DNA from: SAR116 cluster bacterium AG-390-L20
Lineage (GTDB): Bacteria > Pseudomonadota > Alphaproteobacteria > Puniceispirillales > Marisalimonadaceae
Direction of reading: 5' to 3'
Length of the DNA stretch: 64,000 bases
NCBI GenBank assembly: GCA_003278095.1
Contig: QCHB01000003.1
Coordinates: 1-64,000 of the forward strand
The position numbers were made by a program, and so were the translations under genes. This document shows positions 43,723 to 53,666 of this stretch, in pieces (position 1 is the first letter of the stretch; every line of letters begins with the position of its first letter). The notes under the pieces are model-generated. The model made no database searches. It worked only from the letters and a program-made list of their open reading frames with translations, and was not told the origin of the DNA.

Positions 43723-45123
43723 TTATTTTGCACTTATTTTTATTTTATTTCTTATAAGCCATAGACAACTCAAAGAAGGAATTACCATAATGGTTGTTAA
43801 AATAAAAAAAATTCCCCAATCCCCATTTAGCCAATCTACAAGAGCTCCTGAAGATGAAGCAAGAGTTGTTCTTCCAGCAGTTCCTATAGACGCAAGCAAA
43901 GCATATTGAGTGGCTGTATAAGTTCTATCAACCAATAATGAAATAAATGCAACAAATGCTACTGTTGCAAATGCCGCTGCAATATCATCAGCAATCACAG
44001 CAATTGCAAATAATAATTCAGATTTGCCTGTCCAAGCCAAAATTGCAAACAGAAGGTTTGTTAGAGCCATTAACCCTCCAGCAAAAAACATTGTTTTTAT
44101 TGTTCCGGTCCTCATTGCCATTACACCCCCTAACAATGTGAAAACAACAGTAGTAATCCAACCAAGTCCTTTAGAGTAAATGGCAATCTGACCTTTTGAA
44201 AATCCAATTTCTTTATAAAAAACAATAGACATTCGGCCAAGAAATGCTTCGCCAATTTTGAACAAGAAAACAAAACCTAATATTCCTAAAGCTATAGCAA
44301 ATCCATTCTTTTTAAAGAAACTAACTATAGGCCCACCTAAAGTTCCTGCAACATACGCAAGGAATTTAGTTATAAAGTTGCTAGGTCCAAATTTTCCTGC
44401 GATAATTTTATCAGTTTCATTTTGTTTTGTTTGTCTGTCAGTTTCAATTGGCTCATTAATAAACATCAAGCCAATATTCATTAAAATTATTACGACCCCT
44501 AAAACTAAGAAAGTTGCTTGCCAGTAATCAGCAACATTTATCTTTTCAAAATATTCTGCCGTAAACAAAGCTATAACACCTCCTAGTTTATAACCTGTCC
44601 ACCAACCAACTACTGCTATTGCAGCACCAGCTGCCATAGCTTTTCCTTCATTTTGATTGATTTGTTCAATCCTTAAGGCGTCAACAGTTATGTCTTGTGT
44701 AGCCGAAGCTATAGCAATAATTAACCCAACAAAAATTAATAAAGTTAAGTTTTGAGTTGGGTTTATAAAACTCCAAACCAATAAACTTAGTAAAATTGCA
44801 ACTTGCATTAAAACTATCCATCCTCTTCGATGGCCTAGTTTTTTCGTTAACAGAGGTATCTGAATTCTATCTATTATTGGAGCCCATAAATAATTAAATG
44901 CATATACACCAAAAATTAGACCTGCCCACCCTATTGTTGATCTGCTCAGTCCTTCTTCTTTTAACCAAAGACTTAAACTACTTGCAATCAAAACCCATGG
45001 GAAACCGCTTATGGCACCAAGAAGTAAAATTCTTAGCATTCTTATATCTTTAAAAACTAAAATTGATTCAATCCAATTTTGTTTTACTATCATAATAAAA
45101 AATCCAAAAAAGTCATAGATCAT
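43723..45123 (-). CDS. ampG: AmpG-family muropeptide permease
   Basis: The 466-residue MFS-type protein brings GlcNAc-anhydroMurNAc and its peptides back into the cytoplasm. It shows RMLRILLLGAISGFPWVLIASSLSLWLKEEGLSRSTIG, the conserved AmpG start. APIIDRIQIPLLTKKLGHRRGWI, the ASATQDITVDALRIE motif and GWWTGYKLGGVIALF follow. The C-terminal half contains FLFKIGEAFLGRMSIVFYKEIGFSKGQI. It is divergent from the YkuD gene (62 bases apart). It is the entry point for the recycling genes to its right. Confidence 0.92.
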   Translation of the reverse strand: MIYDFFGFFIMIVKQNWIESILVFKDIRMLRILLLGAISGFPWVLIASSLSLWLKEEGLSRSTIGWAGLIFGVYAFNYLWAPIIDRIQIPLLTKKLGHRRGWIVLMQVAILLSLLVWSFINPTQNLTLLIFVGLIIAIASATQDITVDALRIEQINQNEGKAMAAGAAIAVVGWWTGYKLGGVIALFTAEYFEKINVADYWQATFLVLGVVIILMNIGLMFINEPIETDRQTKQNETDKIIAGKFGPSNFITKFLAYVAGTLGGPIVSFFKKNGFAIALGILGFVFLFKIGEAFLGRMSIVFYKEIGFSKGQIAIYSKGLGWITTVVFTLLGGVMAMRTGTIKTMFFAGGLMALTNLLFAILAWTGKSELLFAIAVIADDIAAAFATVAFVAFISLLVDRTYTATQYALLASIGTAGRTTLASSSGALVDWLNGDWGIFFILTTIMVIPSLSCLWLIRNKIKISAK

Positions 45124-45185: not shown

Positions 45186-45728
45186 ATGCAGATAAATTGG
45201 TTAGTGATACATCTTGGTAAAAAATATTTCTTGAAAGTTGGTAATAAAGTTTTTAAGTGTCAAATAGGTTTAGGAGGCTCTAAAAAAACAATAAAAAAAG
45301 TAGAGGGCGATAAAACAACACCAATTGGAAAATGGTATTTAAAATCAATATATTATAGACCTGACAGAGTGTTAAGGCCAAAATTAAAGAAAAAAAATAT
45401 TTTAAAAATAAATCGAATAACAAAATATTGCGGTTGGTGCGATGATATAAGAAGTCATTATTATAACAAATATATCACAATTAATGATTCTCGATCGTTA
45501 AATATCAATTATGAAAGTTTGTGGCGGCAAGACAATGCTTACGATATAATCATTGAAACTTCCCACAACACTAAACCAGTTATAAAAAATAGAGGAAGTG
45601 CAATTTTTATACATTGTAGCTTTGAAAATTTAAGAACAACAAGTGGTTGTGTTGCATTAAAAAAAAGAGATTTGATGTTTCTAATTAAAAATCTTAATAG
45701 TGAAGCTTATATTCAAATTAAAAAGTAA
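45186..45728 (+). CDS. YkuD-domain L,D-transpeptidase/L,D-carboxypeptidase without signal peptide
   Basis: The 180-residue protein is essentially a bare YkuD domain. The active site FIHCSFENLRTTSGCVAL has catalytic His143 and Cys155. The N terminus (MQINWLVIHLGKKYFLKV) already forms the first strand, so there is no signal peptide or membrane anchor and it should be cytosolic. Cytosolic YkuD enzymes such as ElsL of Acinetobacter act as L,D-carboxypeptidases that trim recycled tetrapeptides. Its position next to ampG fits that role better than wall cross-linking. No clear ribosome binding site is seen at the ATG. Confidence 0.85.
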   Translation: MQINWLVIHLGKKYFLKVGNKVFKCQIGLGGSKKTIKKVEGDKTTPIGKWYLKSIYYRPDRVLRPKLKKKNILKINRITKYCGWCDDIRSHYYNKYITINDSRSLNINYESLWRQDNAYDIIIETSHNTKPVIKNRGSAIFIHCSFENLRTTSGCVALKKRDLMFLIKNLNSEAYIQIKK

Positions 45729-47853: not shown

Positions 47854-48717
47854 AAACTTCGTTATGGCCGAAAAGTCTAAGTCTCCTTTTTTGTCATTTA
47901 CCATTTGTCTAAAATTTTCTTGAGCTTTGATTCCAAAAGGTGCAAGTGTATTTGTATCATTTATAGCTTTAAGAGCTATACTAAGATCTTTGTACATTAA
48001 GCTTGCTGAAAAACCTGGCTCAAAACTCTTATCTGCAGGGCTTTTAGGGCCAACCCCTGCAATAGGACAATAATTGTTTACAGCCCAACATGACCCTGTT
48101 GAAGTAGATAAAATTTCAAATAATTTTTTGGGATCTAATCCTAAGTTTGTCCCTAAGTTAAAAGCCTCTCCTACTCCTATCATAGTAGTTGCTAGTAACA
48201 TATTGTTACAAGCCTTTGTAGCTTGTCCAGAACCATATGTCCCACATAAAAGTGATTTTTGTCCCATCACACCAAATAGGGGTAACATCATTTTATAAGC
48301 ATTTTCATCGCCCCCAACCATAAATGTTAGTGTTCCATTTTCGGCCCCACCAACACCTCCTGAAACTGGAGCATCAAGAAAGAAAAGGTTTTTAACTTTA
48401 CATTTTTTATGAAGCTCTTTAGCTTTATTAACATCGATTGTAGAACAGTCAGTTATTAGTGTTCCTGGTTTTAGTCTATCTATTATGTTATCTAAGGCCT
48501 CTTCTACAATGTCTCCATTAGGTAACATCGTAATGATTATATCTGTTCCTTTTGATACATCATTTAAATTATTAGCTTTTTTTAGTCCATTAGGAGACAG
48601 TTGATCTATATATTCTTGATTTATATCATAACCTACAACTTCATAATTACTTTTCAAAAGATGAGTTACCATTTTAGATCCCATATTACCTAAGCCAATA
48701 AAACCAATTTTTTTCAT
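47845..48717 (-). CDS. 3-hydroxyisobutyrate dehydrogenase-like enzyme
   Basis: The 290-residue enzyme shows all hallmarks of the beta-hydroxyacid dehydrogenases: the Rossmann motif GFIGLGNMGSKMVTHLL, the substrate motif FLDAPVSGGVGGAENGTLTFMVGG, the catalytic lysine in GSGQATKACNNMLL, and KDLSIALKAI. It is closer to valine-pathway MmsB than the paralogue at 21498. It overlaps the upstream GH84 gene by 4 bases, so the two are translationally coupled. That would be odd for valine breakdown and suggests either chance packing or action on a sugar-acid. No other mms genes are nearby. Confidence 0.88.
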   Translation of the reverse strand: MKKIGFIGLGNMGSKMVTHLLKSNYEVVGYDINQEYIDQLSPNGLKKANNLNDVSKGTDIIITMLPNGDIVEEALDNIIDRLKPGTLITDCSTIDVNKAKELHKKCKVKNLFFLDAPVSGGVGGAENGTLTFMVGGDENAYKMMLPLFGVMGQKSLLCGTYGSGQATKACNNMLLATTMIGVGEAFNLGTNLGLDPKKLFEILSTSTGSCWAVNNYCPIAGVGPKSPADKSFEPGFSASLMYKDLSIALKAINDTNTLAPFGIKAQENFRQMVNDKKGDLDFSAITKFNE

Positions 48718-49868
48718 TTTAATTCTCCTTTTTTTAAAAATTCAGATAGAGGTATTGTTTGACTTTTAATAACTCGATCAGAGGGTAGAAGTTTTTTATT
48801 AATTTGTAAATCTTGCTTTAAGCCAAATAAAAAAGGGTACCATTCTCTTGACAACTCACCTTTCCATTTCCATAAAAGATAATCTATTACTTCTATATCT
48901 TCTCTATTAATCTTAACAGATTGAATGGATGGATTTGAACCAAAGTCTGGCATTAAAAAAAATTTTTTAATTTTAAGAAATAATTCTGGGACGCCATGAG
49001 TGTAGATTATAATTTCCCACTGTCGTGTTGAAAGTTTTCTAATAACACTTCTTCCAAATATATCTAAAATTAGAAGATCTGTCTTTATCATACCTGTTGG
49101 GTTAATCATTATGTTTTTTAAATTTTCTCTCCCTGAAGTGGGCCCTATAAAAAAACGTCTTGGACAATAATCATTTGCATAAAAGTTATCCCAGATGATT
49201 ATCTCATTTGATAAGACTTTATTTATTTTTTCATAATTTTTCATATCTTTACTAACTATGTTTTTTCCGGAATAAAATATTCTTTGGTTAGGGTTTATGG
49301 TTTTGCTTAAATCTTTCAAATAAGAAGGCTCATCCTCTATTAATTCATCTGCATAAATTCTAGGTACAAAAAAAATATTCTGTCCTAATTCATCTGAAAG
49401 TTTGTTAGCCAAAATACCGTGATATGTTCCTTCAGATATATTGTCACCAAACTTTTTTTTAAAATTGTTAGGAATATCGTCTAAAAGCAAAACTATAGAT
49501 TTTGCTCCATCAGCAAGTAATTGTTTGGCTTTATCTAAAAGTGCTTGAAAATCAGAGTTTGTACTCTTTTTTTTGTTACAAATTAATTCTTTAAAATTAA
49601 AATCTAGTCCGGGAGCAATTCCAGCAATAACATCTATCTGATTTTTTTTACTAAATTCTGTAAATCTTCTAAAACTAAGGCGCCATTTTTTACTATATTT
49701 TTTTCTCCAACAAAATCTATGACAAACATCTTCTTTGGGAGCGTATAAATAAGTATTCATTTTATTTTTATAAAGTGATTTAATTATAAGATTTCTATTT
49801 TTCCAAGATAAAATTTTTCCATAATAACCTTCTATATATCCGATTATATTATTTTCAATGTTTTTCAT
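48714..49868 (-). CDS. GH84-type beta-N-acetylglucosaminidase, apparently cytosolic
   Basis: The 384-residue protein is recognised as GH84 (NagJ/O-GlcNAcase family). IIGYIEGYYGKILSW matches the first barrel strand. NTYLYAPKEDVCHRFCWRKKY matches the substrate loop. The catalytic pair Asp130-Asp131 in VLLLDDIPNNF supports substrate-assisted hydrolysis of beta-GlcNAc, and IIIWDNFYANDYCP is the later aspartate/asparagine region. It has no signal peptide and only the catalytic domain plus a short C-terminal region, unlike secreted GH84 toxins. Among anmK, murQ and ampG, its likely job is to split GlcNAc from anhydroMurNAc, the role of NagZ elsewhere; this is inference. It overlaps the dehydrogenase gene by 4 bases. 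Confidence 0.85.
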   Translation of the reverse strand: MKNIENNIIGYIEGYYGKILSWKNRNLIIKSLYKNKMNTYLYAPKEDVCHRFCWRKKYSKKWRLSFRRFTEFSKKNQIDVIAGIAPGLDFNFKELICNKKKSTNSDFQALLDKAKQLLADGAKSIVLLLDDIPNNFKKKFGDNISEGTYHGILANKLSDELGQNIFFVPRIYADELIEDEPSYLKDLSKTINPNQRIFYSGKNIVSKDMKNYEKINKVLSNEIIIWDNFYANDYCPRRFFIGPTSGRENLKNIMINPTGMIKTDLLILDIFGRSVIRKLSTRQWEIIIYTHGVPELFLKIKKFFLMPDFGSNPSIQSVKINREDIEVIDYLLWKWKGELSREWYPFLFGLKQDLQINKKLLPSDRVIKSQTIPLSEFLKKGELK

Positions 49869-49924: not shown

Positions 49925-50614
49925 ATGAAAATTTTAGCACTCGGCGCTCATCCAGATGATATTGAGATTTTTATGTATGGTTTACTTTCTATTTATAAAA
50001 AAGAAGGAAATGAAGTTTATACAATGATTGCTACTGATGGTGCAAAAGGAGGCCTTTTGGGAGATAAAACATTAGTTCAGAAAAGAGCAAAAGAGGCCAT
50101 TAATGGTTTAAAAAAAATATCTGTACCAACCTTTTTAAATCTTCCAGATGGTAGATTAGGAGAAGAACAAGTACATCAAAAAACTATTAAAGAAAATATA
50201 TTAAAAATTATGCCTGATTTAATTATTACTCATGCTCAAAACGATTATCATACTGATCATAGATCTTTGTCTCTACTTACAACTAGTGCAGTTAGTCATT
50301 ATATACCAATTTTATTTTGTGATACTTTGATGGGAGTTAATTTTTTTCCTAACTATTATGTTGATATAACAGATCATTATGAATCTAAAAAAGAAGCTGT
50401 TCTAAAACATAAAACTCAAAACCCTCAAAGATTTTTAGACTTATTTAAGTTAATGAACTCATATAGAGCTGCCCAGTGTAATGCACCAAAAGGCAAATAC
50501 GCAGAAGCATATTGCTTTACACCGTCATTTCCTTTTATAGATATAAAAGGAATATTACCTCCTTCTTTTAAATTAAGACCTTTTCATATAGAAAATCAAA
50601 ATGGTTTCTTATGA
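49925..50614 (+). CDS. PIG-L/LmbE-family zinc deacetylase
   Basis: The 229-residue enzyme has the zinc motif GAHPDDIE (His9, Asp12) and the second metal motif YHTDHRS (His112), the LmbE/PIG-L signature of N-acetylglucosamine deacetylases. VYTMIATDGAKGG and SYRAAQCNAPKGKYAEAY are also typical. There is no signal peptide. Its position between the GH84 gene and anmK suggests it deacetylates a GlcNAc-type product of wall recycling, possibly replacing NagA, although this family also acts on bacillithiol-like or lipid precursors. Its 3' end overlaps the convergent anmK gene by 6 bases. Confidence 0.87.
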   Translation: MKILALGAHPDDIEIFMYGLLSIYKKEGNEVYTMIATDGAKGGLLGDKTLVQKRAKEAINGLKKISVPTFLNLPDGRLGEEQVHQKTIKENILKIMPDLIITHAQNDYHTDHRSLSLLTTSAVSHYIPILFCDTLMGVNFFPNYYVDITDHYESKKEAVLKHKTQNPQRFLDLFKLMNSYRAAQCNAPKGKYAEAYCFTPSFPFIDIKGILPPSFKLRPFHIENQNGFL

Positions 50615-51700
50615 ACCTTTATATAATGATCCTCCTGATGAGGGTTTTGAAACTCCAGTTGTTAGAGGAAATGTAAACGGAAGTTGGTAAACAGACCTAG
50701 CTGATAAATAAGCAATTAATTCGGCTTCTATATAATCAAACTTAATGTCTAATTGTTTTTCATTAAAAATATTTATATTTAATTTATTTTTTAAGCGATT
50801 AATTAAATAAGTATTTCTATATCCACCACCAGTAACTATAAAATTATTAATTTTTTTAGGTAAAAAACTTAAACTAGCTGAAATTGAATCTAGAGTAAAC
50901 TCAGTTAATGTAGCCATAACATCAAATGCAGAATACTCTTTTTCAATTAATTGTTTATAATGACTAATAAATGAAAGCCTATCAAGTGACTTTGGAGGTG
51001 GTTTTTTAAAAAATTCATTCTGTAAAAAAACTTTAATTTCTTCCTTAATTGGTGTCCCTTTAGAGGCAAATTTACCGTCCTTATCATAATTTTTATTAAA
51101 ATGAGTAAACGAATAGTTGTCCATTAATGCATTCCCAGGCCCAGTATCAAAACCAATTAATTTCTTGCCATCCCAGTATGTTAAATTAGAAACACCACCT
51201 ATATTTAGTATACAAGATGGCAGTTCTAAATTACTTTTTTCAATTATAAATTGATGATAAATAGGTGCTATTGGTGCTCCTTGCCCTCCTAAAACCATAT
51301 CATTAGATCTAAAATCAAAAATAACATCCTTATTAAGCAATTTGGCCAACATTTGGGGGTCACCTAATTGAACAGAAGTCTTATTCTCTGGGTCATGAAA
51401 AATTGTTTGTCCGTGAAAACCTATCAAATCACATGTTTCAATTATATCTAAGTCTTTCAAAGCTAGATAATGTTGGTTAGTTACAAACTCGTTTAAGTGC
51501 TGTTTTCTTTTTAAATTAAAGTCTAAATCTTTACTTAAAATACTCATCAAAAACTTTTTAGTGTTATCAGTATATTCATAAAAATAATTTTTATCTTGCC
51601 TTATTAAATCTAACCCATTTGTTCTAACTAAACTAATATCAATCCCATCCATACTGGTTCCGGTCATAAGACCCACAATATTTAAATACTCATATTTCAA
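50609..51700 (-). CDS. anmK: Anhydro-N-acetylmuramic acid kinase AnmK
   Basis: AnmK opens the 1,6-anhydro ring of anhydroMurNAc and phosphorylates it, giving MurNAc-6-phosphate. The 363-residue length is normal. It shows GLMTGTSMDGIDISLV at the N terminus, DLIGFHGQTIFHDP, VQLGDPQMLA, FDFRSNDMVLGGQGAPI, LNIGGVSNLT and the ATP/active-site motif GFDTGPGNALMD with Asp185. VTGGGYRNTYLINRL is near the C terminus. The start is a TTG at 51700 behind AGG at 7 bases. It is divergent from murQ, its pathway partner, with 44 bases between. Confidence 0.95.
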   Translation of the reverse strand: MKYEYLNIVGLMTGTSMDGIDISLVRTNGLDLIRQDKNYFYEYTDNTKKFLMSILSKDLDFNLKRKQHLNEFVTNQHYLALKDLDIIETCDLIGFHGQTIFHDPENKTSVQLGDPQMLAKLLNKDVIFDFRSNDMVLGGQGAPIAPIYHQFIIEKSNLELPSCILNIGGVSNLTYWDGKKLIGFDTGPGNALMDNYSFTHFNKNYDKDGKFASKGTPIKEEIKVFLQNEFFKKPPPKSLDRLSFISHYKQLIEKEYSAFDVMATLTEFTLDSISASLSFLPKKINNFIVTGGGYRNTYLINRLKNKLNINIFNEKQLDIKFDYIEAELIAYLSARSVYQLPFTFPLTTGVSKPSSGGSLYKGS

Positions 51701-51744: not shown

Positions 51745-52488
51745 ATGAGACAAAATATACCTAAAACAGAGCGAGTATTCCAAAATAGTAAACCTATTGA
51801 TAAATTGAATATTTTTGATGGTATTACATTAATTGTTAATGAGCAAAAAAAAGCTGCGCTAGAAGTGAAAAAAGCTGCAATATCAATTAGGTTCGCAATA
51901 AATGAAATTTCAAAACATTTATCGTCTAGTAAAACTGGGCGATTAATTTACGTTGGAGCAGGTACATCAGGTAGAATAGGTGTGCAAGATGGTGTTGAAC
52001 TTTTTCCAACATTTAATTGGCCTAAGAAACGTTTGGATTTCATTATAGCGGGAGGAAATAAAGCTATTATAGAAACAGTTGAAAACGCAGAGGACTGCAC
52101 TTCAGAAGCTTTTAAATCAGTTATAAATAAAAAAATTAATTCTAAAGATGTTGTTATTTGTCTTGCAGCAAGTGGCAATACACCTTTTACGTGTAAAGTT
52201 ATTGAAGAGTCATTTAATCAAGATGCCTTAACCATTGCAATTAGCAATAATCCAAAAGGTAATATACTAAAATTTGGAAAAATTAATATTATCCTTGATA
52301 CAAAAGCAGAAGTTATAGCAGGATCAACAAGATTAAAAGCAGGGACTGCACAAAAAATTTGTTTAAATGCAATTTCTTCAATGGTAATGATAAAATTGGG
52401 TAGAGTAAAGAACGGAATTATGAGTGAAATGGTTCCAACGAACGAGAAGTTAAGAAAAAGAAAAAAATTTTTTCAAATCAAAAATTAA
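51745..52488 (+). CDS. murQ: MurNAc-6-phosphate etherase MurQ, short form
   Basis: MurQ removes D-lactate from MurNAc-6-phosphate, giving GlcNAc-6-phosphate. The SIS-domain motif LIYVGAGTSGRIGVQDGVE contains Glu85, matching the catalytic acid. FIIAGGNKAIIETVENAEDC contains Glu113 or its neighbour as the second glutamate. KAGTAQKICLNAISSMVMIKLGRVKNGIMSEM and PTNEKLRKR complete the core. At 247 residues it stops where E. coli MurQ (about 298) continues into a C-terminal helical region; that part is missing without visible frameshift. It converges on the NlpC/P60 gene with 18 bases between stops. Confidence 0.92.
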   Translation: MRQNIPKTERVFQNSKPIDKLNIFDGITLIVNEQKKAALEVKKAAISIRFAINEISKHLSSSKTGRLIYVGAGTSGRIGVQDGVELFPTFNWPKKRLDFIIAGGNKAIIETVENAEDCTSEAFKSVINKKINSKDVVICLAASGNTPFTCKVIEESFNQDALTIAISNNPKGNILKFGKINIILDTKAEVIAGSTRLKAGTAQKICLNAISSMVMIKLGRVKNGIMSEMVPTNEKLRKRKKFFQIKN

Positions 52489-52506: not shown

Positions 52507-53265
52507 TTATTTATTAAAATCCATCATTTTAATTATGGGATTTTTTTCCCCCATTCTGAAAATTATTTCCTTAAGAGGTTCAATAATAGTTTTCATATGG
52601 TAAGCATTAGCGTGAATACAATTTAATTTATCAACCATTATTCCAACATGCCCTTCCCAAAAAACCACCGATCCTCTGTCCAATTTCTTTACATCATTAA
52701 TTATTTCTTTATCAATATTAACTTGATCAGTAGTATTTCTAGGAATTTTTTGTCCGAAAGTCTCATAAGAAATTTGAAGAAGGGCAGAGCAATCAATTCC
52801 TAAAGTATCCCTTCCGCCCCATTTGTAAGGTGTTTCCAAAAGACTTTCTGATATAAAAACCCAATCTTTAGTAATATTATTAATATTTGATATGTGCTTA
52901 ATGGGTACGAACCCAGTTTTATAAGGATATTTAGAAGGTAAAAAAATTTCTGCCCAATTATTTTCCATTTGTTTTACTGACAATTTAGATCCAAGAGGAA
53001 GATAAATTATAGAGTTAGATTTTTCACTCTTTCTCTCTAAAACAAATGTTCTTTTTGATAATACTCTATGTGTAATAGTTTTAAAATTACACAAACTTTC
53101 ACTTTTCACCCAACCTTGGTAATTATCTGAAAATAATTTGCAAAAAGTCCACTCTAAATAATGATCTAAAGTTTCAACTTGTTCACCAAATAAGCATTCA
53201 GTTTCTAACGGTAAGGCTATAGAAGGCTTGGATCTCATACCAATAGATGGTTCTGCAACTATCAT
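52507..53265 (-). CDS. SH3-NlpC/P60 cysteine peptidase, apparently cytosolic
   Basis: The 252-residue enzyme has two N-terminal bacterial SH3-like segments (about residues 1-125). The NlpC/P60 domain that follows carries Cys159 in GIDCSALLQ, His206 in FWEGHVGIM and His218 in CIHANAYH. Such enzymes cut the D-gamma-glutamyl-diaminopimelate bond of wall peptides. There is no signal peptide. The ORF track starts at 53286, inside the upstream amidase gene. The ATG at 53265 overlaps that gene's TGA as ATGA and gives a protein that begins directly with the SH3 domain (MIVAEPSIGMRSKPS), so I prefer it. It is coupled to the amidase. Confidence 0.9.
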   Translation of the reverse strand: MIVAEPSIGMRSKPSIALPLETECLFGEQVETLDHYLEWTFCKLFSDNYQGWVKSESLCNFKTITHRVLSKRTFVLERKSEKSNSIIYLPLGSKLSVKQMENNWAEIFLPSKYPYKTGFVPIKHISNINNITKDWVFISESLLETPYKWGGRDTLGIDCSALLQISYETFGQKIPRNTTDQVNIDKEIINDVKKLDRGSVVFWEGHVGIMVDKLNCIHANAYHMKTIIEPLKEIIFRMGEKNPIIKMMDFNK

Positions 53266-53666
53266 AATTTCAGATTTTTTGACCATTTGATTACATTAAA
53301 ATTTGGACATGTTTTTTTAGTATTATTATCATCGCAATGACCAATAATTATAGCTCCAGGGTAAGATTTTTTCCATTTCTTTAAAATTTTTTCCAATGAT
53401 ATAAATTGTTTTTTTGTAAATTTATTACGCCCTATCAAACATACCCCTAAGCTTGTCTGATTTTTACCTTTTACATGAGCACCAATCCAATACTCTGGAC
53501 GACCATTTTCAACTTTTCCTGATCTTAGTATAACTTTGTGATATCCTATTCCGTCCCAGCCAAAGCCTAGATGCATATTATGTATATAACTTGCATCTAT
53601 GTTATTATTGTTCGGTGTATCAGAACAATGTACAACAAGCAATTTTATGTCTGACTTAAAAAGCAT
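53262..53666 (-). CDS. T7-lysozyme-like N-acetylmuramoyl-L-alanine amidase
   Basis: The 134-residue Amidase_2 domain resembles phage T7 lysozyme more than AmpD. Zinc ligands are His13 (LLVVHCSDT), His110 (IIIGHCDD) and Cys120 (TKKTCPNF); Tyr42 (GIGYHKVI) and Lys118 occupy the T7 catalytic positions. SHAKG-like GAHVKGKNQTSLGVCLIG is also shared. There is no signal peptide. It overlaps the NlpC/P60 gene by 4 bases, so both ends of the stem peptide are probably attacked by one operon. Acting in the cytosol it could play the AmpD role. It has no phage neighbours. Confidence 0.9.
   Translation of the reverse strand: MLFKSDIKLLVVHCSDTPNNNNIDASYIHNMHLGFGWDGIGYHKVILRSGKVENGRPEYWIGAHVKGKNQTSLGVCLIGRNKFTKKQFISLEKILKKWKKSYPGAIIIGHCDDNNTKKTCPNFNVIKWSKNLKL

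Follow-up and report, generated by a model that had tools for sequence, protein, structure and literature searches.

The glycosidase of Gram-negative peptidoglycan recycling is usually regarded as fixed, being the GH3 enzyme NagZ, which works through a covalent glycosyl-enzyme, whereas the enzymes of the GH84 family, known for the hydrolysis of protein O-GlcNAc and of host glycans, rely on substrate-assisted catalysis with two Asp residues. Some leaderless bacterial GH84s have been used as structural models of human OGA, their own function not being known. The TtOGA of Thermobaculum is a cytosolic GH84 enzyme (PMC4683255). A precedent for an unrelated cytosolic enzyme performing a canonical recycling step (that of LdcA) is given by ElsL, a leaderless YkuD protein acting as a cytosolic L,D-carboxypeptidase (PMC8649774); it serves a different step and belongs to a different enzyme family than GH84, and a leaderless YkuD protein is encoded in the cluster described here as well.

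The window analyzed in this work, a stretch of 64,000 nucleotides from a SAR116 cluster bacterium, encodes a leaderless GH84 protein, which, on genomic evidence, very probably is a cytosolic exo-β-N-acetylglucosaminidase doing the job of NagZ in peptidoglycan recycling, the activity itself being putative. The proposed reaction and position in the pathway are those of NagZ, i.e., GlcNAc would be removed in the cytosol from GlcNAc-anhydroMurNAc(-peptide) once AmpG has imported it, while the sequence family and the catalytic mechanism are different. Among the open-licence papers searched, none was found that dealt with both an O-GlcNAcase and AnmK, those found on GH84 and NagZ concerned inhibitors, chitin or fungi, and the hypothesis itself was not found stated. 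If it is true, free-living bacteria employ GH84 for a core physiological task, and NagZ is replaceable by an enzyme of a different mechanism, which suggests a natural role for some of the leaderless bacterial models of human OGA. The absence of nagZ would then be no proof of absent recycling in abundant ocean bacteria, and cell-wall recycling in SAR116-type organisms could be sensitive to GH84 inhibitors.

The GH84 protein and its active site

The open reading frame at 48714-49868 (minus strand) starts with ATG and encodes a protein of 384 amino acids, matching the Pfam family NAGidase (PF07555) with 156 bits (E-value 1.6e-45, cut-off 25). No other domain was detected in it by Pfam profile search, and, PF07555 being its sole family match, the protein does not fall into the GH3 sequence family. 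The motifs GYIEGYYG, YAPKED and LLLDDIP, listed in a previous sequence-only reading, are all present. The N-terminus is devoid of a hydrophobic stretch, with the family motif beginning from residue 10, and the same is true of the related GH84 loci of the clade; the signal peptide and accessory modules characteristic of secreted GH84 toxins and hyaluronidases are absent, in agreement with the previous description of the enzyme as leaderless and free of such modules. A role in a defence system was rejected, as PADLOC gave no match.

The AlphaFold (AF2) model of the protein (pLDDT 93.2, pTM 0.93) matched the core of human OGA (5uhk) with a TM-score of 0.82 by target length and OgOGA of Oceanicola granulosus (2xsb) with an E-value of 1.4e-22, these two being the nearest solved relatives. 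Alignment to human OGA placed the known GlcNAc-site residues at K45, D130, D131, Y172, W226, N228, D233 and N256, all of which are invariant in 62 sequences of relatives with identity to the query down to 24%. The profile score above the curated cut-off, the barrel fold of the model, the catalytic Asp pair and the GlcNAc-site residues thus assign the protein to GH84.

The catalytic barrel and every GlcNAc-site residue are shared with the known GH84 O-GlcNAcases (human OGA, OgOGA, TtOGA, CpNagJ, BtGH84), the identity over structural alignments being 19-27%. The protein differs from them in having neither HAT nor carbohydrate-binding modules, in its diverged C-terminal part, in a fixed linkage to muropeptide recycling genes, and in Arg replacing Thr at the second position ahead of the active-site Tyr. 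Human OGA and TtOGA are likewise leaderless and already known as cytosolic; consequently, of the new role that had been ascribed to a cytosolic GH84, the pathway and substrate would be novel, but the location is not.

It is very unlikely that the enzyme acts as a protein O-GlcNAcase on O-GlcNAc-modified cytosolic proteins, with its place among recycling genes being incidental. Its closest solved structures are indeed human OGA and OgOGA, and Thermobaculum possesses a cytosolic bacterial O-GlcNAc hydrolase together with an OGT partner (PMC4683255); however, the neighbourhood of the gene and its gain and loss follow the recycling genes in two classes and, as a separate case, in the alphaproteobacterium G285 (see below), and position 170, two residues N-terminal of the active-site Tyr, is Arg in 38 of the 39 recycling-clade members, while human OGA has Thr there and the sequences outside the clade have Thr, Gln or Ser. 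As a guess, R170 might touch the MurNAc side of the substrate.

The recycling island and the proposed pathway

A nearly complete peptidoglycan-recycling cluster surrounds the GH84 gene:

43723-45123, minus strand: AmpG-family muropeptide permease (TIGR00901, 367 against a cut-off of 350)
45186-45728, plus strand: leaderless YkuD protein, probable ElsL-type L,D-carboxypeptidase (PF03734, 41 bits; no hydrophobic N-terminus)
48714-49868, minus strand: leaderless GH84 β-N-acetylglucosaminidase, proposed NagZ replacement (PF07555, 156 bits)
49925-50614, plus strand: PIG-L/LmbE deacetylase, proposed NagA replacement for GlcNAc-6-P or GlcNAc deacetylation (PF02585, 83 bits; BshB1-like below cut-off; zinc motifs HPDD and HTDH)
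50609-51700, minus strand: AnmK, anhydro-N-acetylmuramic acid kinase (PF03702, 246 bits; NF007141, 372 against a cut-off of 352)
51745-52488, plus strand: MurQ, MurNAc-6-phosphate etherase, short form (NF003915, 268 against a cut-off of 168)
52507-53286, minus strand: leaderless NlpC/P60 protein with SH3_16, YkfC-like murein peptide endopeptidase (PF00877 and PF18348; DCS active-site motif)
53262-53666, minus strand: leaderless Amidase_2 protein, AmpD-like N-acetylmuramoyl-L-alanine amidase (PF01510, 50 bits; weak match to the AmpD equivalog NF008758, below cut-off)

The proximity of the gene to anmK and murQ, pointed out in the sequence-only reading, is real, with the PIG-L gene standing between GH84 and AnmK. 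SH3_16 is a domain found in bacterial dipeptidyl-peptidases. The MurQ proteins of the order, with a median of 253 amino acids, are about 50 residues below the standard length, the C-terminal part of the profile being missing. In several members the 3' end of the GH84 gene is overlapped or directly adjoined by an M19 dipeptidase gene (L055:5918-6949, L057:7207-8226, L104:5110-6189, L106:11095-12192), whose product possibly cleaves a recycled dipeptide; in the genus of the window this position is taken by a hydroxyisobutyrate dehydrogenase gene.

With local candidates available for the AmpG-dependent recycling steps, the β-N-acetylglucosaminidase would have to be GH84. In the proposed pathway, AmpG would import GlcNAc-anhydroMurNAc-peptides, and the peptide would be processed by the AmpD-like amidase, the YkuD carboxypeptidase and the NlpC/P60 peptidase. 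GH84 would take the non-reducing GlcNAc off GlcNAc-anhydroMurNAc(-peptides) by substrate-assisted catalysis, with D130 presumably orienting the acetamido group and D131 serving as the acid/base. AnmK would then convert anhydroMurNAc to MurNAc-6-P, MurQ would split the latter into GlcNAc-6-P and D-lactate, and the PIG-L enzyme would perform the deacetylation normally done by NagA. What the analysis shows is the cluster, the conserved active site, the lack of NagZ and GH20, the co-occurrence and the structure of the clade, whereas the exact substrate, the order of the steps and the deacetylation by PIG-L are inferred.

A recycling role on another bond, e.g., in GlcNAc-MurNAc from lysozyme-type cleavage or in chitobiose, with AnmK being fed by another glycosidase, seems highly improbable. 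Enzymes of GH84 in general tolerate many aglycones, and free non-anhydro disaccharides could reach the cytosol, but AnmK acts on anhydroMurNAc, so that its partner must release anhydroMurNAc, and, GH3 and GH20 being absent, the cluster showed no further candidate for such a glycosidase.

Absence of NagZ and co-occurrence of GH84 with AnmK

The genuine nagZ (GH3) that the sequence-only reading advised to look for in the same genome was not found: the PF00933 profile search gave no match in the genome of the window (2.23 Mb, 93% complete), nor in 60 relatives of the order, among them the single-contig genomes G037, G042, G043 and G048, while the same profile, as a control, matched in 10 of 14 reference genomes. 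NagZ encoded elsewhere in the genome was rejected on this result, and so was GH20 as the alternative glycosidase, none being present in the 61 genomes (the window's own and the 60 relatives). GH84 is the sole candidate for the NagZ function among GH3, GH20 and GH84, being leaderless, cytosolic and genetically tied to AmpG and AnmK.

Within the order, GH84 was detected in 43 and AnmK in 42 of the 61 genomes; both are present in 41, neither in 17, GH84 only in two and AnmK only in one (Fisher p = 5e-12, without correction for kinship), and GH84 thus follows anmK almost perfectly, as the sequence-only hypothesis demands. The discordant genomes are G018, in which GH84 is truncated where a 3.9-kb contig ends, G052, whose GH84 lies close to one end of a contig of 4.9 kb, and G041, in which AnmK is present and no GH84 was detected. 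In 39 of the 41 genomes possessing both, the two genes lie on one contig, their domain matches being 49-3397 bases apart, and the cluster Ami2-NlpC-AmpG-YkuD-MurQ-AnmK-PIG-L-GH84 is conserved across families of the order.

In a class-wide sample of 289 genomes at ≥90% completeness, AnmK was present in 229 and a NagZ-family match in 249. The AnmK-bearing genomes without a NagZ-family match numbered 12, i.e., four of the SAR116 order, all with GH84, and eight others without it (G079, G096, G102, G126, G132, G194, G227 and G250). The latter reflect either assembly gaps or another NagZ replacement, so NagZ loss is not always filled by GH84, unless these assemblies are incomplete. Such AnmK-bearing genomes, devoid of both NagZ and GH84, indicate that other solutions may exist, and an unrecognised enzyme could in principle carry out the NagZ step in SAR116 too, with GH84 as a passenger of the recycling island. 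We regard this as extremely unlikely, since the catalytic residues are invariant even in the most distant of the aligned relatives and GH84 stays with AmpG and AnmK although the gene order varies between lineages.

Only six genomes of the order had a NagA above the cut-off; none of them was among the 30 whose cluster holds PIG-L, and two belonged to the four without it (p = 0.011). In G051 and in locus L109, NagA adjoins AnmK inside the island, while in G037 and G043 neither PIG-L in the stretch seen nor NagA over the cut-off was present. This distribution suggests, as a lead and not as a demonstration, a second enzyme replacement, in which PIG-L stands in for NagA downstream of MurQ. With the PIG-L/LmbE deacetylases (BshB, diacetylchitobiose deacetylase) the cluster protein shares the zinc motifs, and amino-sugar N-deacetylation is common to the family; in distinction from BshB, it scores below the BshB cut-offs and appears to replace NagA.

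GH84 beyond the SAR116 order

The nearest records to the GH84 protein in a scan of a genome collection came from SAR116 cluster and Candidatus Puniceispirillum genomes. Relatives with 36-43% identity were found in the gammaproteobacterial Granulosicoccaceae. There the GH84 gene lies next to AmpG and mostly also to Ami2 and NlpC, with AnmK or MurQ joining them in several cases, and the gene orders are unlike those of SAR116. AnmK is present in 10 of the 11 Granulosicoccaceae genomes, and NagZ over the cut-off in none; the weaker GH3s of three of them were rejected as cytosolic NagZ, the three strongest starting with lipoprotein-like signals. In the tree, the GH84 proteins of SAR116 and Granulosicoccaceae form one clade (SH-aLRT 99), with the latter nested in the diversity of the former, which suggests gene transfer. 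AmpG, AnmK or MurQ was nearby in the locus seen for 46 of the 48 clade members, the other two being on 6-kb contigs. The leaderless members thus fall into a single clade associated with recycling genes, a point that the sequence-only reading had proposed to check, and this clade extends into a second class.

The GH84 proteins of SAR86 and Fibrobacterota fall outside this clade. Those of Fibrobacterota (L114-L123, L137) are leaderless, close to the clade and mostly found without AnmK; the wider clade is therefore not recycling-specific. AnmK was present in 10 of 11 SAR86-type genomes tested, with only weak GH3 matches (35-56 bits) and no NagZ-like GH3. The SAR86 GH84 was rejected as a member of a recycling cluster, its neighbours including genes of a release factor and a methyltransferase (L125-L136).

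Other GH84s of the class (in G063, G164, G331 and G345) have no recycling neighbours. In the alphaproteobacterium G285 (L053:1604-10191), a GH84 from a remote branch (25% identity) is accompanied by AnmK, an AmpG-like permease, MurQ, a BadF-family kinase and D-lactate dehydrogenase, and this set fits a pathway from which GlcNAc, MurNAc-6-P and D-lactate would be released, an apparent second independent recruitment of GH84. Since NagZ-like GH3s are kept elsewhere in this genome, GH84 is not needed there as a replacement.

The absence of GH3, the tracking of AnmK, the recycling clade and the association in G285 support, on genomic grounds, GH84 as the replacement of NagZ. Somewhat less surely, though still with a fair balance in its favour, the whole marine order, and Granulosicoccaceae by gene transfer, may recycle muropeptides by means of non-orthologous replacements, with GH84 taking the place of NagZ and, in the majority of SAR116 members, PIG-L that of NagA; GH84 would then have been recruited on two or more occasions, SAR86 possibly being a third. 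Within the genus of G285, GH84 occurs in only one other of 11 genomes, where it is a longer protein whose N-terminus is hydrophobic.
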